64,000 nt of DNA from Acidihalobacter yilgarnensis. GTDB lineage: Bacteria; Pseudomonadota; Gammaproteobacteria; DSM-5130; Acidihalobacteraceae. Shown one piece after another: positions 3,603 to 61,823 of the stretch. The first letter of the stretch is position 1, and the number at the start of each line of letters is the position of its first letter. Under the pieces are notes generated by a model, which did not search any database, had not been told where the DNA came from, and saw only the letters and a list, made by a program, of their open reading frames with translations. Where the stretch lies: the NCBI RefSeq assembly GCF_001753245.1, contig NZ_CP017415.1, positions 1,454,501-1,518,500 on the forward strand. The letters are read 5' to 3'. A program made the translations under genes and the position numbers.

Positions 3603-5561
3603 TCAAGCAATTTTCGCGGCAACCGCTTCCAGGGTATCGAAGCCTACATGCCGCCCGAAGAGAAACACGCCGTCGTCGCCCGATTGCCGGTTCGAATCGG
3701 CGGCAAGATTGCCATGGCCGCGCTGCCTCAGATCCGCTTCCGCAATCTCGAAGCCGTCGGTCGTGCGCGTCATGACATCTAGGCGCTGCAAGGTCTTTTC
3801 CTTCATCGGACGGGATAGATACAAATCGAACCAGCCTTCGCCGCCGTTGCGCGCCACGCGGCCACGCAGCTGGTGCAACTGGGTCAGCCCTAGCGTTTCC
3901 GGGTTCATCACCACAAGGCGTCGAACACCCGGCAGATCGATACCCACCTCGACGAGCGTGGTGGCTACGAGGATGCGGGCTTTACCGGACTTCATCGCCT
4001 CCATAGCCGCCCGGTTTTCGTCCTGATCCAGACCGCCATGCGCCAGCATGACTTGTCCCGGGAAATGACGCTCCCACAGATGAAACATGTCCTCGGCCGA
4101 TTTGCGATCGCGCCCGGTGCCGGGTTCATTGGCGCCGGCCTTGCGCGGGTAGACGACGATGACCTGACTGCCGGATGTGCAGGTTTCGCGGATCTGTTGA
4201 AACAGTTTGGTCTGCTCGCCGGCTTGCCAGAGACGGGTGTGAATGGTCTTCTTGACCGGTCCGTCCCGCAATTTCGAAACCGTTAGCGCGCCAAAGCGAA
4301 TCAGCGCCTGGGAGCGCGGAATGCAGGTTGCCGATGCTTCCAGCAGATGCGTGCCGTCGCCGACGAGCTTCTCCCGCTGTTCACGGGAAAACTTGTGCTG
4401 TTCGTCGACCACGACTAGATCCATGTGCCCGATTTCTCGATGCAACAGAGCCGTCGTGCCGACCAGTAATGGCGCATGGGTCAAATCGCTCGTGCTTTCT
4501 GTTGTGCCGGTCACGCAGACAGCGGCGACATCAGGCCACCAGCCGATGATGCGCTCGTGTACCTGCTCGGCCAGTCGCTCGTTCGGCAGCAGGATAGCCA
4601 CGCGCCCTCCGCCGCGCACGACGGAGATGGCCGCCAGCGCGAAAACGGCCGTTTTGCCGGTTCCCACGTCACCGGATAGCAGACGGCGCATGGGTTGGAG
4701 CCTGGAAAGATCCTTGTGGATTTCCCCAACGGCAGTGCGCTGGTCCTTCGTGAGTGCGAAGCCGAGCGCCCTAGCTTGCGGTTCCCAGGGTGCGGGATTG
4801 TGCCACCGGGTCACGCCAAGATGTTGCGCGGCGCGAAGATCGCGCAGGGCATGCCAGGCGGCGAGTCTCTCCAGCACTTGCTGCGCAGCGCACCCCTCGG
4901 TCGGCGTTCGCGGACGATGAGCAAGCCAGAGCACCCGTTCCAGTGGAACCCGCATGGGAAGGCCTGACACCATGTGCCATTCGTTGATCTCCGACTCGCC
5001 CAGTTGAGCGCGAAGCCAGTTGGCGGCATCGGGCACCTGCGCCTTGAGTCGGTTCAGCACGTACCGGCGAACGACATCCGGCTCCAAACCCTGTTTGCCA
5101 GAGTAGATGGGACGAAGCTTGCCGACCCATTCAGGCGAAACGGGTTGAGTGCCCTTGAGGCGCAATGCGCGTCCCGCGAAGTCGAGCTTGCCGAATAGAT
5201 GCACCCGGCAGCCTGACGGCAAAGTCCTACGCAGCGTATCGAGATCAGCCGCCGTACCGTAAAGAGTGAATTCAAGCGCGCGGCCGGCGTCATCCAGCAT
5301 CTGACCGATCAGGCGAGGGTAGGGGCGGGTGTTGAGCACCGGCGCGCGGCTCAATACCCCATGCACGAGAACCATCTGCCCAACATCGCCGGACTTGAAA
5401 TCGAATTGTGTTATGGGGTGCCGCAGGTCATCCCAACGGTGAGGCAGGAAGAGGGGTATCTGTCTTGCCTGCGTCAGCCCAAACGCGGCCAAGGGACCCA
5501 CCGAACGGTTGTCCCTGGAAGCGTGACCGGGCTGAGTGGCCGCGGTGGACATGACTGGCAT
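3603..5561 (-). CDS. RecG-like ATP-dependent DNA helicase
   Basis: A 652-residue superfamily-2 helicase with RecG architecture: an N-terminal OB-fold/wedge-like part (about 1-250), Walker A SGDVGTGKT (about 300), a Walker B variant VVVDEQHKF and a C-terminal helicase domain with ILVATTLVEVGIDLPG and QLHQLRGRVARNGGEGWF. RecG remodels forks and recombination intermediates. The motif III region reads SATCIPRSQAL rather than the usual TATPIPRTLAL, and the protein is slightly shorter than chromosomal RecG, so it is probably an element-borne paralogue. The IS605-type element ends just after its stop codon. Confidence 0.8.
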   Translation of the reverse strand: MPVMSTAATQPGHASRDNRSVGPLAAFGLTQARQIPLFLPHRWDDLRHPITQFDFKSGDVGQMVLVHGVLSRAPVLNTRPYPRLIGQMLDDAGRALEFTLYGTAADLDTLRRTLPSGCRVHLFGKLDFAGRALRLKGTQPVSPEWVGKLRPIYSGKQGLEPDVVRRYVLNRLKAQVPDAANWLRAQLGESEINEWHMVSGLPMRVPLERVLWLAHRPRTPTEGCAAQQVLERLAAWHALRDLRAAQHLGVTRWHNPAPWEPQARALGFALTKDQRTAVGEIHKDLSRLQPMRRLLSGDVGTGKTAVFALAAISVVRGGGRVAILLPNERLAEQVHERIIGWWPDVAAVCVTGTTESTSDLTHAPLLVGTTALLHREIGHMDLVVVDEQHKFSREQREKLVGDGTHLLEASATCIPRSQALIRFGALTVSKLRDGPVKKTIHTRLWQAGEQTKLFQQIRETCTSGSQVIVVYPRKAGANEPGTGRDRKSAEDMFHLWERHFPGQVMLAHGGLDQDENRAAMEAMKSGKARILVATTLVEVGIDLPGVRRLVVMNPETLGLTQLHQLRGRVARNGGEGWFDLYLSRPMKEKTLQRLDVMTRTTDGFEIAEADLRQRGHGNLAADSNRQSGDDGVFLFGRHVGFDTLEAVAAKIA

Positions 5562-5618
5562 CCCGTGTCAAAAGTTTCTCAAACTTTATCAGACAGTTGC
5601 GTGAACGCAAGAATCATT

Positions 5619-5707
5619 CTCTCTTTCCCGCATACACGGGGGGAACGATGTTGAACGGTGAGCCCAGGGAATAGCTCGCCTCTCATCCCCGCATACACAG
5701 GGGGAAC
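5619..5707 (-). CRISPR. Vestigial two-repeat type I-E-like CRISPR
   Basis: Two 28-base repeats (5619-5646 and 5680-5707) match at 25 of 28 positions around the core CCCGCATACAC and end in GGGGGAAC. Their spacing is exactly 61 bp, the periodicity of type I-E arrays, leaving one 33-bp spacer (5647-5679). On the minus strand the repeat begins GTTCCCCC and ends GGGGATGAGAG, the usual I-E form. There are no cas genes in the window, so the array is a remnant, a mini-array or a decoy. Confidence 0.6.
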
Positions 5708-5772
5708 CCTTCTTCCAATCCATTGAAAAAAGAGCAATTTTTAGAGCCGTTTCAAAGTACCAACTTCTTGAC

Positions 5773-5807
5773 GCCTCAAAACGGGCCAAAATAGCCCGCT
5801 TTGAGGC
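5773..5807 (-). terminator. Hairpin downstream of the outer-membrane protein gene
   Basis: A long inverted repeat (GCCTCAAAACGGGC / GCCCGCTTTGAGGC, one mismatch, 7-base loop) starts 12 bases past the stop codon at 5819. The U-tract is poor, so termination may be weak or the structure may protect the mRNA 3' end. Confidence 0.6.
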
Positions 5808-5818
5808 TGCCAGTAACA

Positions 5819-6667
5819 TCAAAACACCCGAATACCCAGCATCAGGACATCCTGGCGCGTCGTGCTGTTCGGCTCAAGCAACGACAGGGTTCCTATCGAA
5901 GTTTGCACGGTGCTCATCGAAGAAGCGCCATAACCGAATTTCGTCTGCGAATAACTCACAAACACGTTCCAGTTGTTGCTCGGAATCCAAGACAATTTGA
6001 CCCCTTCCTGAGTCCAGCTATGGCTCCCAAGATCAACCCGGGTGCCGGAGCCGATATAAATATTATCGTACGCGCCGAATGTGTTGCCCGACTGTACATT
6101 TCCCGATAGCACGAATCCGCGGCCGAGATTGTAATCGACATCCAGACCGATGCCGTCGTAACCATTGTAATAATCTTCCTGATAGCCGCCGACCCCGCCC
6201 AGCGTTCGATACCACGCATGGCGGCCCCAAAGCACATCCGGCATGACGGCAAGTCCGGGCAACGGAGAGAACCCGTAATCGAACTTGAGATCAAAGTCGA
6301 TGATCTTGTTTCCTGTCTGCGACTGAACCGGAGTGATGGTGCCCGTTTGGATGTTCTGCACAGCGCCGTTGTAATGGGTGTTTCCGGAAAACAGGCTGTA
6401 ATCCGTCTGAAAACCGAAATGACTCCATTGGCCGCCAACACCAATCTCATGACCGTCGATCGTGCCGGATTCAGAATCCAGCGAGGCACCGTTGTAGGTT
6501 TCCTGATAATGCTGCGAAAGCTGTCCGATGCCGATATTGATGCCGGAATGCGCATCTTGAATCGTGTTGGGCACAGCCCCAAAGAAATCCGAAAAGCCGT
6601 AAGCATAGGCGGGTCCGGCCAGGGCGACAGACAGCAAGGCGACGCCAGGAAAAATCACTTTCTTCAT
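5819..6667 (-). CDS. Putative outer-membrane beta-barrel protein
   Basis: A 282-residue protein with a clear signal peptide (MKKVIFPGVALLSVALAGPA, cleavage near AYA). It then has alternating polar/hydrophobic strands rich in Tyr, Gly and Asn, and ends in phenylalanine (LGIRVF), the usual C-terminal signal of outer-membrane barrels. I chose the ATG at 6667 because the signal peptide begins there; the upstream part of the open frame overlaps the RNase III gene and is spurious. No specific porin family is recognised. Confidence 0.7.
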   Translation of the reverse strand: MKKVIFPGVALLSVALAGPAYAYGFSDFFGAVPNTIQDAHSGINIGIGQLSQHYQETYNGASLDSESGTIDGHEIGVGGQWSHFGFQTDYSLFSGNTHYNGAVQNIQTGTITPVQSQTGNKIIDFDLKFDYGFSPLPGLAVMPDVLWGRHAWYRTLGGVGGYQEDYYNGYDGIGLDVDYNLGRGFVLSGNVQSGNTFGAYDNIYIGSGTRVDLGSHSWTQEGVKLSWIPSNNWNVFVSYSQTKFGYGASSMSTVQTSIGTLSLLEPNSTTRQDVLMLGIRVF

Positions 6668-6755
6668 TATTAAATATCCTAAATTAAACAATAGGTTAGA
6701 TCGATTTCCCAATCGCAAAACGATCGTAACCACAACTTCAAAACAGGCAAGCCGA

Positions 6756-7400
6756 TCACCCGGCGAGCTTTTCCAGGCACTGCGCCGCGGCGCTGAACTC
6801 GGCTTCTTGCCGACTGCTGCCCATGCCCACGCCGCCGACACCACCGGCCGTGCAATGCACGATGAACTGGCCGCCGCGCGCCGACACCGTGCGATAGTGC
6901 GGTCCGGCCTCATGGCGCCGCGCCAAACATTCCTGCAATTTCGTTTTCGCGTCCTTGGCGTCCTCCGGGTCCTCCGGCAGGTTCTGCATGGCAACGGTAA
7001 GCAGGGCGGTGACGAAGGCTCTCGCCGCTTCCCATCCGGCATATTCGAAGACCGCGCCGATGATGGCTTCCACTGCGCCGGCCAGCACTCGGGGCGATGG
7101 CGTCTCCGGGTGCGCGTGAGTGCCGGAAAGCGCGATCCGTCCGGCGAGATCCATGTTCTGCGCGACCCGGCACAACGCATCCCGTTCCACGAGACGGGTG
7201 CGGAGCCGGCTCATGCCGCCTTCGGTCAGCTGCGAGGGTTTGCAGTACAGCCATTCGGACACGACGAGTTCCAGTACCGCATCCCCCAGAAATTCGAGTC
7301 GTTCGTTGTGAGGCTCGCCGGCGGAACGATGCGTCAACGCCGTGCGCAACAGCGGGTCGTCGGCCAGTCCGTCGGGGAGATGGGATATCCAGTTCTGCAT
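6756..7400 (-). CDS. rnc: RNase III homologue with a missing metal ligand
   Basis: A 214-residue double-stranded-RNA endonuclease homologue. The N-terminal RNase III domain has the signature NERLEFLGDAVLE (about residues 32-44), and a C-terminal dsRNA-binding domain follows (KTKLQECLARR ... SSRQEAEFSAAAQCLEKL). The second catalytic block reads LAGAVEAIIGAVF where E. coli has LADTVEALIGGVF, so the aspartate equivalent to Asp114 is glycine while Glu117 is kept. This could reduce cleavage and leave RNA binding. It is divergent from the trb operon. Confidence 0.85.
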   Translation of the reverse strand: MQNWISHLPDGLADDPLLRTALTHRSAGEPHNERLEFLGDAVLELVVSEWLYCKPSQLTEGGMSRLRTRLVERDALCRVAQNMDLAGRIALSGTHAHPETPSPRVLAGAVEAIIGAVFEYAGWEAARAFVTALLTVAMQNLPEDPEDAKDAKTKLQECLARRHEAGPHYRTVSARGGQFIVHCTAGGVGGVGMGSSRQEAEFSAAAQCLEKLAG

Positions 7401-7531
7401 GCAGGCAGCATGAGGGGCGCGCCAACCTGCTACGGACCCAAATAACCGCGCTCACAACCGTTATTCAGCGAAAACATGGGGTGACAACGGTGCGATGCTG
7501 GAAATCCGACGTTCAGAAATGGGTATCTCGT

Positions 7532-8533
7532 ATGACGCACCCAAACCCCGATCAGCTTGCCGGTGGACTGGAAGACGCCTTGACGGCACAGCCGGGCGAA
7601 ACCCTGGAATCGCGCGAGGCAAAACGGCTTTTGTCCGCCCTGTTGATGCCCTTGAGTCACCTGTTCGCGGGCGAAGTGACCGAAGTCATGATCAACCGGC
7701 ATGACGATATCTGGGTCGAGGACAGGGCCGGCATGCGGCGCGTCGACTGCACCCTGCCCAAGGATGCCGTGGAAACGGCCATTGTCGCGCTCGGCAGGCT
7801 GGCCGGCATCGATGCCGGCGATCAGTGCCCGATTGTGGATGCCCGCGTCGGACGGCATCTGCGGGTCGGCGCGGTGCTGGAACCGGCGGCGGTCGAAGGA
7901 CCGACGCTGTGTATTCGACGCCACGTACCGATGCAGGCTTCGCTGGCGATGTACGGCGAGATCGTGCGTCAGGAAACCCTGCGCCTGCTGGAAGAATCGC
8001 GCAACGTCCTCGTCGCGGGCGCGACGGGATCGGGCAAAACGACCTTCATCAATGCCTTGTTGGCGGAATTGCCGCCGACGGACCGATTGATCGTCATCGA
8101 GGACACCCCTGAACTGACGGTGCCGAATCCCAACCGGGTACGCTTCGAGTCGCGTGGCGGGGCCGACATGAGTGCGTTGTTGCGTGAGGCGCTGCGCCAA
8201 CGCCCCGACCGAATCGTGCTCGGCGAAATCCGAGGACGCGAGGCCTACGATCTGCTGCAGGCGTTCAACACAGGACACGGCGGGTCCTTTTCCACCATCC
8301 ACGCGGGATCGCCCGCCGGCGCGCTGCTCCGCTTGGCTTCGTTGGTGGGGCAAGCCGAAGAGGCGCGCTCATGGCCGCAGTCGGCCATCCGCTCCGCGAT
8401 CGCCGCCTCCGTCGGTGGCGTGGTGTGCCTGCGCAAGAAGCAGGTTGTCGCGGTGGCCTCCGTGGAGGGGCTGGACGATACCGGATTCGTGCTGGAAAAC
8501 CGCTTCGAGGCGGGCATAGCCAAAGCAAATTGA
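7532..8533 (+). CDS. trbB: TrbB/VirB11-type secretion ATPase
   Basis: A 333-residue hexameric ATPase that powers the type IV secretion channel from the cytoplasmic side. Walker A is GATGSGKTT (about residue 163), followed by RLIVIEDTPEL, the LGEIRGREA Walker B region and the His box (GGSFSTIHAGSP). I chose the ATG at 7532 (MTHPNPDQLAGG); a longer frame exists but runs back through the RNase III gene. It is first in the trb operon, as in Ti and Tn4371-like elements. Confidence 0.92.
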   Translation: MTHPNPDQLAGGLEDALTAQPGETLESREAKRLLSALLMPLSHLFAGEVTEVMINRHDDIWVEDRAGMRRVDCTLPKDAVETAIVALGRLAGIDAGDQCPIVDARVGRHLRVGAVLEPAAVEGPTLCIRRHVPMQASLAMYGEIVRQETLRLLEESRNVLVAGATGSGKTTFINALLAELPPTDRLIVIEDTPELTVPNPNRVRFESRGGADMSALLREALRQRPDRIVLGEIRGREAYDLLQAFNTGHGGSFSTIHAGSPAGALLRLASLVGQAEEARSWPQSAIRSAIAASVGGVVCLRKKQVVAVASVEGLDDTGFVLENRFEAGIAKAN

Positions 8534-35798: not shown

Positions 35799-36527
35799 TT
35801 ACTTCCCGGCGATCCTCGCCTTGCAGATCGCCGCCAGCTGCGCGGCCGACTTGCCCGTGATCTGCTCGTACTCCTTGACCGTCATCGGATAGGGCAGGGT
35901 GACGATGTGGTGGGTGAAGGTGCCGGCATCTCCGAAGTATCCACCAACATTATCAGATCCGAAAAAATCCAGATTACGGTAGAAGCTCTTGCCATGCTGA
36001 ACTCCCTTGATCCCCGCCGTGATAGCGGCAGCCATGGCGGGCAATATATCTTCCTGCCTCGTCCAGTACGGTCCCGTATTGTCATAGTACTTATCGTTTG
36101 CTACCCCCACCCCTCGCAAATTCATGTGGACTCTGAACCCCGCGAAGGTGAGGTATCCTCTGAGGCCTGTCGCGCCCAAACCTTCACTGAAACCATTTTC
36201 TTTGAATGTCCGAAGGGTAATCTCGAAGTTCACCGGCACGGCGGGGCCTTTGCCCTGAGTCAGCCCGGCGCGCTGGAAGGCGAGTTCGATGTTGTACTTC
36301 ATCATCTTGGCGTACATCGGGTCGGGCAGGCAGTGGTAGACGGTTTCGTGTACCGGGCGGGCGTCGGGGGCGACGGTGACCTTGCCGACGGTGAAGGCGC
36401 GGCCCTTGAGGAAGGCGGTCTTGGAAGCCGGGGGCGGGTTGTTGAGGGTGACGCCGTGGTTGAATGCGCAGCCGCCGAGGGCGAGCAGGCCGAGCAGGGC
36501 GGCGGCGAGGGCGAGCGGGCGGATCAT
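35799..36527 (-). CDS. Lipoprotein with variable central domain, copy 1
   Basis: A 242-residue lipoprotein: signal peptide with lipobox LALGGC (Cys 20). Residues 1-99 and the last 32 (LPYPMTVKEYEQITGKSAAQ onward) are nearly identical to the second copy at 42081-42791. Residues about 100-210 are unrelated to it, apart from a loosely similar WTRQ stretch. Convergent with the exported gene at 34026, separated by a bidirectional terminator. A lipoprotein with fixed anchor and swapped centre suggests specificity, as in exclusion or immunity proteins (inference). Confidence 0.8.
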   Translation of the reverse strand: MIRPLALAAALLGLLALGGCAFNHGVTLNNPPPASKTAFLKGRAFTVGKVTVAPDARPVHETVYHCLPDPMYAKMMKYNIELAFQRAGLTQGKGPAVPVNFEITLRTFKENGFSEGLGATGLRGYLTFAGFRVHMNLRGVGVANDKYYDNTGPYWTRQEDILPAMAAAITAGIKGVQHGKSFYRNLDFFGSDNVGGYFGDAGTFTHHIVTLPYPMTVKEYEQITGKSAAQLAAICKARIAGK

Positions 36528-36730
36528 GGTGTTCTCTCCTGTGTATCGTGTTCTTGGACAGGGTTAGGATCGCACGGGAGAGGGGGAATGCAAGCTCAGG
36601 TCGTATCGCCAGAAAGCTTCGCGCTGACCCATCCCCAGAAGCAACCATGGACGGTCCGCGACCCGCCGGCGTCAGGGCGTCCGATGGGGGGTAGCAAGGC
36701 GACTCGACGGCACGTAAACAGGCGTCTTGT

Positions 36731-42080: not shown

Positions 42081-42791
42081 TTACTTCCCGGCGATCCTCG
42101 CCTTGCAGATCGCCGCCAGCTGCGCGGCCGACTTGCCCGTGATCTGCTCGTACTCCTTGACCGTCATCGGATAGGGTAAATTGAAGGCATGGGTTTTGGG
42201 ATGTGACCCTGGGCCAAAATAGAAACCTACAAGAGGGCTTTGTAGTTTTGAATTAAATGTTTGTCCCTGTTGAATTGATTTAATACCGGTCGCGATGATC
42301 GCAGCCAGAGCGGGGATAATGCGTTGTTGGCGCGTCCATCTTTGGCCTTTGTTTTCCCATAAGGGGGAGCCAACTCCTTGCGCATGGGCCAAAATAGAGA
42401 AAGTGCCGAATGAAAGCATGGCTTCCATATTACTAGAATGAATTAATAAATTACTGTGAAAAACTCTTTGAGTGATGGTAATTGACACCGGAACTGCGGG
42501 GCCTTTGCCCTGAGTCAGCCCGGCGCGCTGGAAGGCGAGTTCGAGGTTGTACTTCATCATCTTGGCGTACATCGGGTCGGGCAGGCAGTGGTAGACGGTT
42601 TCGTGTACCGGGCGGGCGTCGGGGGCGACGGTGACCTTGCCGACGGTGAAGGCGCGGCCCTTGAGGAAGGCGGTCTTGGCGGCCGGGGGCGGGTTGTTGA
42701 GGGTGACGCCGTGGTTGAATGCGCAGCCGCCGAGGGCGAGCAGGGCGAGCAGGCCGAGCAGGGCGGCGGCGAGGGCGAGCGGGCGGATCAT
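42081..42791 (-). CDS. Lipoprotein with variable central domain, copy 2
   Basis: A 236-residue lipoprotein with lipobox LALGGC (Cys 23, after a three-residue LAL insertion relative to copy 1). Residues 1-102 and the last 32 are nearly identical to copy 1; residues about 103-204 differ and are encoded by visibly AT-richer DNA (42180-42485). The shared upstream region (to about 42860) includes the same promoter segment and AGGAGAGAA Shine-Dalgarno. Probably outer-membrane anchored; role inferred as for copy 1. Confidence 0.8.
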   Translation of the reverse strand: MIRPLALAAALLGLLALLALGGCAFNHGVTLNNPPPAAKTAFLKGRAFTVGKVTVAPDARPVHETVYHCLPDPMYAKMMKYNLELAFQRAGLTQGKGPAVPVSITITQRVFHSNLLIHSSNMEAMLSFGTFSILAHAQGVGSPLWENKGQRWTRQQRIIPALAAIIATGIKSIQQGQTFNSKLQSPLVGFYFGPGSHPKTHAFNLPYPMTVKEYEQITGKSAAQLAAICKARIAGK

Positions 42792-42941
42792 GATCGTTCT
42801 CTCCTGTGTATCGTGTTCTTGGACAGGGTTAGGATCGCACGGGAGAGGGGGAATGCAAGCGCGACCCGAAACATGATTATAAATTGCCGTTGCAGCCCGG
42901 TTGTATTACAATTTTTTCTGATGTAATACCCGGGAAGCGCC

Positions 42942-52822: not shown

Positions 52823-54355
52823 TCAGTGGTAGTAGCCGGGGCCACGCAGATGGTCGTGCGCCTCGGGTAAGGACAGTGCCTGTTGTTCGGGCAGAGGCTG
52901 GCGATCGAGACCGCGCTTGAGGATCGATTCGAGGCTCTTGTAGCGACAGGCGCCGAGCAGCAGGGCGCGTTGGCAGGCGGCTTCGAGGCGATCCTGACCG
53001 AAGCGTTCACCCAGGCGCATGATCCCTAAGCAAGAGCGGAAGCCTTGCTGGGGATGCGGCCGGGACAGGACCTGGCTGATCACCCCGGCGGTGGCCGGAC
53101 CGCTTTTCTCGGCCCAGCGCACCAGTCGCTGCGGCGTCCATTCGGCATACTCACGGTGGGCCTTGGGCATGTGCGCGGTGATCGTGGTGTGACGGCCCTT
53201 GGCCGGGGAGCGTACATGGCTGGCGACGCGCTGGCCCTTGTGGAAGCACTCCAGGGTATGGGCGGTCAGCCGGGCATCGAGCTGTTGCCTGACCAGGGCG
53301 TACGGCACTGAGTAGTAATGGCCGTCGACCTCGACGTGGTAGTCGATGTGTACCCGGACCTTTTTCCAGGTGGCGAACACATAGGGCGTGGCGGGCAACA
53401 CCCGCAGGGCGGGCTGATCGATCTGTTCGAAGGCCTCACGGCGTGTGCCGGGCAGCTTCTTGAACGGGCGGTTGTTGAGCCGCTCCAGCAGGGTCGCGAT
53501 CGCGGCATTGAGTTCCTTCAACGTGAAGAAGGTGCGATGACGCAAGGCGGCGAGGATCCAGCGCTCGACCACCAGCACGGCGTTCTCGACCTTGGCCTTG
53601 TCGCGCGGCTTGCGCACGCGTGCGGGGACGACCGCCACGCCATAGTGCTCGGCCAGTTCCGCATAGCTGGGGTTGAGGTCCGGCTCATAACGGCACGCCT
53701 TGCTGACGCCGCTACGCAGGTTATCCGGGACGACGACCTCGCTCACCCCGCCGAGGAACTCAAAGGCCCGCACATGCGCACCGATCCAGTCGGGTAGCGT
53801 CTGTGTCCAGGTCGCCTCGGCGTAGGTGTAGTTGGAGGCCCCGAGCACCGCGATGAAGACCTGCGCGGTACGCACCTCACCGGTGTGTTGGTCGATGATC
53901 TCGACCGTCTGGCCGGCATAGTCGACGAACAGCTTCTCGCCGGCACGATGGGTCTGGCGCATCACCCGATCGAGCTTGCCGGCCCAACGGCGGTAGTGGG
54001 TACAGAACCACGTATAGGCGAAGCCGTCGCGGTAAGCCGCCCGGTACTCTTCCCACAGCAGCATCAGAGTGACGCCGGGACGGCGCAGTTCCTGATGCAC
54101 CACCGGCCAGTCCGGTAGTGGGCGCGTAGCGGCCGGTACCGCCGACGCGGGCGGGAACAGACGACGCTCGATCTCGGTATCGCTCAAGCCCGCCGGCAGC
54201 GGCCAGTTCAAACCCGAGACAGCAAAGCGTCGCTCGTACTCGGCCACGCTGCTGCGGGCGATGCGCACGCTCTCGGCGACCTGGCGGGCGGGCAACTGCG
54301 CTTCGAACCGCAGTCGTAAAACTTCTCGAATCTTGCGCATGGACAATCGCTCCAT
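52823..54355 (-). CDS. istA: IS21 transposase IstA
   Basis: A 510-residue DDE transposase: N-terminal helix-turn-helix (MRKIREVLRLRFEAQLPARQ), a catalytic core with EKLFVDYAGQTVEIID (first Asp), VVPDNLRSGVSKA (second Asp) and KPRDKAKVENAVLVVE (Glu), then a C-terminal beta domain. Full length with no visible lesion. It lies upstream of istB on the minus strand. Confidence 0.95.
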   Translation of the reverse strand: MERLSMRKIREVLRLRFEAQLPARQVAESVRIARSSVAEYERRFAVSGLNWPLPAGLSDTEIERRLFPPASAVPAATRPLPDWPVVHQELRRPGVTLMLLWEEYRAAYRDGFAYTWFCTHYRRWAGKLDRVMRQTHRAGEKLFVDYAGQTVEIIDQHTGEVRTAQVFIAVLGASNYTYAEATWTQTLPDWIGAHVRAFEFLGGVSEVVVPDNLRSGVSKACRYEPDLNPSYAELAEHYGVAVVPARVRKPRDKAKVENAVLVVERWILAALRHRTFFTLKELNAAIATLLERLNNRPFKKLPGTRREAFEQIDQPALRVLPATPYVFATWKKVRVHIDYHVEVDGHYYSVPYALVRQQLDARLTAHTLECFHKGQRVASHVRSPAKGRHTTITAHMPKAHREYAEWTPQRLVRWAEKSGPATAGVISQVLSRPHPQQGFRSCLGIMRLGERFGQDRLEAACQRALLLGACRYKSLESILKRGLDRQPLPEQQALSLPEAHDHLRGPGYYH

Positions 54356-57731: not shown

Positions 57732-57903
57732 GCGACGAGTCCGGAATGGGCTTGCCGACATTGTGTTTCCCGTGGAACCGCGCCAGATGTCTAAATAACC
57801 TCAAATCAGACGCTTATTCGTGTTTCTTAGGTATCCATGCGTGGAACCCGTCCCCGGATCGCCATGCATCGGGTTGCGCCAATGTGGCCGGGAATCGACC
57901 GAC

Positions 57904-58118
57904 TTGACGTGACGACGAGTAAGCGGTATGTATAATAGCTAGTGAACAACGGCATCCACGGGCCGCTACCGTGGACATTGAGTAGATTGGTTTCTCCCGC
58001 ATTCGATAGCGGGACGTTCGAGCAGCCTCCGCGCTGGGTGACATGCGCCGGTCAGAAGAAGACACCGGCACACGCCACTCAGCGCACCCGTCGGCCTACG
58101 ACGGGACAAGGAGGCATC
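57904..58118 (+). promoter_or_regulatory. Promoter and structured leader with four stem-loops
   Basis: TATAAT (57931-57936), with TTGACG upstream (21-bp spacing, non-optimal), is a plausible promoter. The following 180 nt can form four perfect stem-loops: 57955-57975 (7 bp), 57995-58014 (6 bp), 58047-58069 (6 bp) and 58087-58105 (7 bp). The last ends three bases before the Shine-Dalgarno AAGGAGG (58108-58114) of the next gene. This could be a regulatory 5' UTR or small RNA; no known riboswitch consensus is recognised. Confidence 0.5.
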
Positions 58119-58352
58119 ATGCTTTCGTTATATCTCACGCCGGCTACGCGGGCATGGCTTAGCCAGCTTGCGCGTTCCCGCGACATCGTGTCATCCGTGG
58201 ATCTTGTAGAAGAACTCGAGTATACCGGCCCCAACCAGGTCGACGCCGTTGCCGGACGCCTCCGGCAACGAGGCATTCAGCACGGGTTGCATCGCTTCTG
58301 TCCCCGCGGGCAGATAGCCACGCGCGATCTTGCCGTCGCTCTGCAAGACTGA
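58119..58352 (+). CDS. Small hypothetical protein (77 aa)
   Basis: A 77-residue protein (MLSLYLTPATRAWLSQLARS, then VSSVDLVEELEYTGPNQVDA) preceded by a perfect AAGGAGG five bases before the ATG, so it is almost certainly translated. It looks mostly helical, with a positively charged C-terminal part (RLRQRGIQHGLHRF). No family recognised. The structured leader suggests tight control. Confidence 0.6.
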   Translation: MLSLYLTPATRAWLSQLARSRDIVSSVDLVEELEYTGPNQVDAVAGRLRQRGIQHGLHRFCPRGQIATRDLAVALQD

Positions 58353-58390
58353 GCAGCTCGCAGCCGATGGCGACCCGTCAAATACCGACA

Positions 58391-58421
58391 ATCACGGCAG
58401 AATCAATCTGTCGTGATTTTT
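58391..58421 (+). terminator. Rho-independent terminator after the 77-aa gene
   Basis: ATCACGGCAG-AATCAAT-CTGTCGTGAT followed by TTTT, about 40 bases after the stop codon. Confidence 0.75.
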
Positions 58422-58468
58422 GTGGCTTTTGAGATATAGATTCGCCAGTTTGGAAAGTTTGATCCATG

Positions 58469-58497
58469 CGAGACGCCTATCGGCGTCTCGTGCTTTT
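58469..58497 (+). terminator. Second terminator-like hairpin upstream of nrdA
   Basis: CGAGACGCC-TATC-GGCGTCTCG, a perfect 9-bp stem followed by TGCTTTT. It lies about 50 nt after the first terminator and 134 nt before nrdA; it may end a short RNA or attenuate nrdA expression. Confidence 0.65.
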
Positions 58498-58630
58498 AAG
58501 ACCTCGTTTTCTCCGTTTCCGGCTCCCGCCGGCTGTAACCCCGTCGCGCATCGTGCGCGGACCGGCTTACAGGGCCAACGCCCCGCCCGACGGCGCGCTG
58601 CCGTCACATCAAAGCCAACGGAGCTTACCT

Positions 58631-61366
<2,736 letters not shown>

Positions 61367-61378
61367 GCTTGTTCTATT

Positions 61379-61404
61379 CTGGCCCGGGGATTATCCCGGG
61401 CCAG
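61379..61404 (+). terminator. Terminator after nrdA
   Basis: CTGGCCCGGG...CCCGGGCCAG, a perfect ten-base stem followed by CTTTCC, 13 bases after the stop. The U-tract is weak. Confidence 0.7.
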
Positions 61405-61823
61405 CTTTCCAGACGCGCCGTGGCGGGTCTCGAAAGAGGCGCTTGATCTGTTTGCGCCAATACGTTAAAAGTGGAAAAGGCATCCGTGGGCCTTGCCACG
61501 GAATATCGCTTCCAGCATCCAGGCTGGAACAAAGCTCAATGTGATGACCTATATCGCCGTTTGGCGAATATCCATCTACCGCATCCTGCGGCATTCCCGA
61601 TTTTTCTATGTCCGACATTGCCACCCCTATCCGTTATCCGCCGGATAAGGCTGTCGATTTCCACAAGACCGCCCCTCTTTAATCGGGCTCAATCATCCGG
61701 CGTGCACGCCGGATATCACCCGTCTGCGGGAGCATTCTCCTGTCGACGGGGAATCTTCCTATCCACTACGTGGACGGGATTTATTTTTCTCCTGGGGAGT
61801 AGTGGCCCCACGAGGAAATCATC
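61405..61823. other. Non-coding region with palindromes
   Basis: I see no convincing gene. Two short palindromes stand out: TTATCCGCCGGATAA at about 61636-61650, and a perfect 20-bp one at 61695-61714 (ATCCGGCGTGCACGCCGGAT). They share the ATCCG/CGGAT core and may be binding sites. A Shine-Dalgarno (GAGGAAATC) precedes the next gene. Confidence 0.5.

Follow-up and report, generated by a model that had tools for sequence, protein, structure and literature searches.

Features of the region upstream of nrdA

The window, that is, the whole stretch of 64,000 nucleotides taken from the 3.57-Mb genome of Acidihalobacter yilgarnensis (G000), carries on its plus strand the gene nrdA (58631..61366), which encodes the large subunit of ribonucleotide reductase (911 aa) with the RNR large-chain and ATP-cone domains (Pfam PF02867, PF03477 and PF00317). 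Upstream of it, in the region 57904-58352, a promoter-like site GTGACG-16-TATAAT (57909..57936, with the TATAAT box at 57931-57936) is followed by a Shine-Dalgarno sequence AAGGAGG (58108-58114) and by the ATG, at 58119, of an ORF of 77 aa (58119..58352). These features, and all those of the two leaders described below, lie on the plus strand. A longer, GTG-started form of the 77-aa frame exists, and an ORF of 39 codons in another frame (58043..58162) overlaps its beginning.

It had been noticed in a sequence-only reading that four perfect stems (7, 6, 6 and 7 bp) lie between the TATAAT box and the Shine-Dalgarno sequence, and that such an order is improbable by chance. Both points hold. A stem script located all four within 57955-58105: hairpin 1 (TCCACGG/CCGTGGA, 7 bp, 57955-57961 with 57969-57975), hairpin 2 (TCCCGC/GCGGGA, 6 bp, 57995-58000 with 58009-58014), a third stem (GCCGGT/ACCGGC, 6 bp, 58047-58052 with 58064-58069) and a fourth (CCCGTCG/CGACGGG, 7 bp, 58087-58093 with 58099-58105). 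None of 2000 dinucleotide shuffles contained four such stems (the mean was 0.34 per shuffle). Among 702 native windows of 182 nt, tiled every 91 bases, a single one did so, and this one, at 58514, is the leader of nrdA itself.

The consensus scan found one promoter-like site in the region, compared with an average of 0.4 in shuffles. In the same-genus genome G002, the −10 box lacks two bases and the same scan yields no promoter, which is evidence against the promoter as drawn. Between the block 57943-58162, which is common to the two genomes, and nrdA, no promoter was found by the scan of the window. Two terminator-like hairpins lie in this interval. The one at 58390..58421, 3' of the 77-aa ORF, has 12 pairs with a T run after them (fold of −15.9 kcal/mol), and the other, at 58468..58491, is directly upstream of the nrdA leader and is common to G002; the terminator scan lists neither.

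Predicted fold and relatives of the reported leader

Minimum-energy folds indicate that the four stems do not form a simple row. The third and fourth are enclosed by a closing helix rich in G+C, in which GCCUCC (58025-58030) pairs with GGAGGC (58110-58115) over the Shine-Dalgarno sequence, so that a three-way junction (58025..58115) is predicted. Its arms are a long hairpin (58031..58085), the tip of which is the third stem, and a short one (58087..58105), which is the 7-bp fourth stem. An outer helix (58020-58024 with 58120-58124) continues the structure, so that the Shine-Dalgarno sequence and the UG of the start codon both lie within the junction. The predicted pairing probability of the Shine-Dalgarno bases 58110-58114 is near 1.

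The fold of 57935-58140 has a z of −5.1 (0/200 shuffles as stable), and that of the 99-nt core 58023-58121 a z of −7.6 (0/300). No GC-matched native 99-mer out of 759 was as stable as the core; over 180 nt, the stability of the leader was reached by 9 of 541 GC-matched native windows. Hairpins 1 and 2 alone (57943-58020) gave a z of −1.45, with 25 of 300 shuffles as stable, which is not significant; since these two are within chance, the fold signal sits in the 3' half of the leader. The complementary strand of the core folds equally well (z = −7.04), and the fold therefore gives no verdict on which strand is transcribed. It is the Shine-Dalgarno sequence and the promoter, and not the energy, that suggest the plus strand.

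According to the energy model, freeing the Shine-Dalgarno sequence and the ATG at 58119 costs 15.8 kcal/mol, more than at 34 of 35 control starts in the window. These controls were Shine-Dalgarno-bearing ATGs that begin open frames of 120 codons or more, picked by rule and with spurious ORFs included. In a hand-made list without the Shine-Dalgarno filter, from which two entries lying at CTC and TGA were dropped, the start of an IS-type ORF at 54355 was dearer to open (18.2 kcal/mol). Stable pairing of the Shine-Dalgarno sequence, as a sequestering leader should have, is therefore found as far as the energy model goes.

One relative of the block was found, on an 8.9-kb contig of G002 with the same neighbours. 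The two copies are identical at 219 of 220 bases (57943..58162). They differ at one loop base of hairpin 1 and at no helix position. The upstream side is still alignable to G002, which bears on a mobile-element origin of the block, and the adjoining intergenic DNA (57823-57930) agrees at 91 of 108 positions (84%). At the other side the homology ceases sharply at 58162, and from there to the nrdA leader run unrelated sequences, of 152 nt in G002 and of 302 nt in the window. However, similarity as high as this is reached between the genomes in 317 of the 5058 overlapping 221-nt windows of the syntenic stretch, and the identity of the block is therefore not exceptional when compared with coding DNA.

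A covariance model of the leader core (R1) matched two of 369 genomes of the class (G000 and G002) and one of 398 genomes of the phylum (G000), G002 not being among the matches of the latter search. A DNA search for the block in five family or order genomes besides G000 and G002 gave no homologue. The leader had no match in plasmids or phages, in IMG/VR (two exact patterns) or in GTDB contigs (one pattern). Rfam 15 gave no match at the gathering threshold in the whole window, and at 57850-58650 all matches were below threshold. The large searches may have passed over weak relatives, because there the stricter filters of Infernal dropped a match of the nrdA-leader model that is described below, and several of the search tools may leave out records very near the genome of the window. 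A 21-base match in contig 3 of G002, inside an ORF of 581 aa, and weak R1 matches (E 3.1 in G000, 9.8 in G001) were taken as chance, and minus-strand R1 matches were set aside as the palindrome of the long hairpin. The DNA that follows the block in G002 had no other good match in the five genomes; its counterpart in the window was searched as DNA in its own genome and as protein in the five.

As the homology ends at 58162, the 77-aa ORF is not common to G002. Its first 14 codons are identical there and the break falls inside codon 15, so that translation of the G002 sequence gives the same 15 residues followed by 20 unrelated ones. The earlier description of the element as the leader of a 77-residue gene has no support as a conserved unit: G002 keeps the RNA and the first codons but not the remainder of the ORF, and the conserved downstream gene that one would look for behind a sequestering leader is not provided by this frame. 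The protein had no Pfam match, and GTDB contigs, plasmids and phages yielded no relative of it; PHROG matches at E 0.19 and 0.22 were disregarded. Codons 16-77 have a coding score of 0.15 per codon, where real genes (which are also the training set of the score) have a mean of 0.23, and open non-coding frames have 0.06 at the 75th and 0.235 at the 95th percentile. The fold of the protein alone (mean pLDDT 54) was too poor for a structure search.

The leader of nrdA

A second structured leader (58511..58623) precedes nrdA itself. Here CUCCGUU (58511-58517) is predicted to pair with AACGGAG (58617-58623) over the nrdA Shine-Dalgarno sequence, enclosing hairpins. A covariance model (R2), made of this leader from the window and from G002, matched L022:4073-4181 in G003, which belongs to a different genus in the same family (E = 3.9e-5 in 130,878 bases from 14 sources). 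The match ends at the nrdA start of G003; in their first 150 residues, the NrdA proteins of G003 and the window are 66% identical. Folded alone, the G003 leader shows the same closing helix and two enclosed hairpins (z = −5.2, 0/200 shuffles), while the two short hairpins of the window copy are reduced or absent in it.

In the model-fitted alignment of the three sequences, 99% of the cells pair and 10 of 37 pairs are changed on both sides; when the partners were slid, the number of such pairs was always 0. A structure-blind alignment (MAFFT with RNAalifold) gave 7 of 36 pairs changed on both sides, and of its failures one pair was broken by a mismatch and the others were lost to gaps. The nrdA leader thus has the compensatory changes by which a cis-regulatory RNA is recognized. 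Since there are effectively two independent sequences, this covariation is good but small evidence. These are good signs that the leader has been kept by selection, and as a riboregulator it is a better candidate than the one reported at 57943-58162. The energy of the window copy is modest (z = −2.2, 4/200 shuffles as stable), and opening the nrdA start costs 8.8 kcal/mol, which is average.

The nrdA leader belongs to no Rfam family at threshold. In the 369 genomes of the class, R2 matched only G000 and G002; under the stricter filters it missed G003, which is itself in that set. R3, run on 82 sources, returned only the three known nrdA leaders (that of G003 twice, as L012 and L022), together with two palindromes on the minus strand (E 0.21 and 0.23). 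These sources include 65 of the 80 IMG/VR nrdA loci (L106-L120 omitted), three plasmid loci and other nrdA-copy loci; the plasmid sample corresponds to 3 of 570 plasmid records, and none of 40 phage records was included. Neither a consensus pattern nor alignment of the N-terminal part of NrdA brought up a contig with this leader in IMG/VR, and a narrow look at the open-access literature met with no description of such an nrdA leader.

Several observations were made on nrdA and its surroundings. In the window no nrdB follows nrdA (61367-61823), and PF00268 matches only at two distant places of the genome. By eye, an ORF that starts like NrdB follows nrdA in G002, and long intein-like insertions are seen in both the NrdB (680 aa; L022:1891-3933) and the NrdA (1317 aa; 4180-8133) of G003. 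Within nrdA, identity to G002 is mostly 90-100 per 100 bases but dips sharply at 60600-60800 (to 74 and 57), as after recombination of a segment. Pieces of nrdA are found again at the end of the G002 contig (L006:4-95 and 1087-1275), which has single N bases, and they represent either a partial second copy or a fault of the assembly. The same contig carries, at its end (L006:8651-8881), a repeat that corresponds to the start of two similar lipoprotein-like ORFs in the window (36369-36594 and 42624-42859).

Possible roles of the two leaders

A tentative explanation, and the one we favour without being able to call it probable, is that the block is a cis-regulatory leader which hides a start site and is opened by some signal. 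In this model a short transcript would have 57943-58162 as its structured 5' leader. The anti-Shine-Dalgarno segment GCCUCC would pair with the Shine-Dalgarno region GGAGGC and the outer helix would cover the final two bases of the start codon; with both sealed, translation from 58119 would be off by default. Opening of the junction would need a signal, which may be a ligand, a protein, or a ribosome on the overlapping reading frame. From the stems, the complementarity, a fold energy far past that of shuffles and near-identity in one sister genome, we infer that the RNA may be made, may fold in this way in the cell and may regulate in answer to one of these signals. The near-identity of the block stands out against the 84% upstream of it and the unrelated DNA after 58162, which speaks for such a leader. 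Against it count the presence in two genomes only, the 317 windows that are as similar, the lack of conservation of the ORF past codon 15 and its equivocal coding score, the damaged −10 box of G002, the equal folding of the opposite strand and the dearer start at 54355. As the same RNA is found in only one sister genome, regulation is plausible but unproven. Of the riboregulator proposed at the outset, then, a structured leader that could control a translation start still has the support of sequence and energetics, whereas the small-gene unit has no support as a conserved one.

Alternatively, the 77-aa ORF might not be a gene; the block would then be a noncoding RNA, or it would form the 5' portion of the nrdA transcript, and would act alone or on nrdA. 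Preservation of the RNA but not of the ORF in G002, the position of the block upstream of the same nrdA in both genomes and the lack of a scanned promoter between the two would agree with this; but the terminator-like hairpins stand in between, the related nrdA of G003 has its leader without the block, and the perfect Shine-Dalgarno sequence and ATG, kept in G002, would be left without explanation. We regard it as unlikely, though by no means far-fetched. It seems rather improbable that the stems are palindromes that arose by chance in G+C-rich intergenic sequence or that matter at the level of DNA, their identity in G002 reflecting recent descent or recombination and not selection on an RNA. 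The equal folding of the opposite strand, the 317 windows of like similarity and the nine native 180-nt windows of like stability all fit that idea, whereas the core is more stable than every native 99-mer compared, its closing helix coincides exactly with the Shine-Dalgarno sequence, and the adjoining noncoding DNA is no more than 84% identical. Least probable of all is translational coupling, in which a ribosome on the 39-codon ORF unwinds the junction and opens the start at 58119. No part of this ORF falls outside the block common to the two genomes, and it is with its stop codon that the block ends; stop triplets make up 2.2% of positions in the window. It was, however, spotted after the fact, has by eye no good Shine-Dalgarno sequence of its own, and begins within the long hairpin, and as its DNA is identical in G002 it allows no coding test.

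The SAM-III (SMK) riboswitch is a leader that controls translation, its Shine-Dalgarno sequence being hidden in the helix which closes the junction. The reported leader resembles it in having a closing helix over the Shine-Dalgarno sequence, enclosed hairpins and an end at the start codon. Unlike leaders of this type, it is below all Rfam thresholds, its controlled ORF is not conserved, and it occurs in two genomes only. It may work as Shine-Dalgarno-hiding leaders do, but there is no support for placing it in a named family. The same plan, a closing helix over the Shine-Dalgarno sequence with hairpins inside, is common to the reported leader and that of nrdA, but the two have no sequence relation, as R2 and R3 miss the former and R1 misses the latter. 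In contrast to the reported leader, that of nrdA covaries with another genus and has an ordinary opening cost. A far-reaching and very improbable proposal is that two unrelated leaders stand in tandem before nrdA, the second being of a new class resembling riboswitches, which would set the translation of nrdA in response to a nucleotide or a metal. The first would govern either this transcript or a small peptide with an accessory role.

Because a diverged relative exists, the nrdA leader is testable at once. If these readings are true, a small bacterial lineage would possess an RNA, not described before, by which a start site is hidden, and ribonucleotide reductase, which makes the precursors of DNA, would be under the control of a leader RNA at the level of translation.
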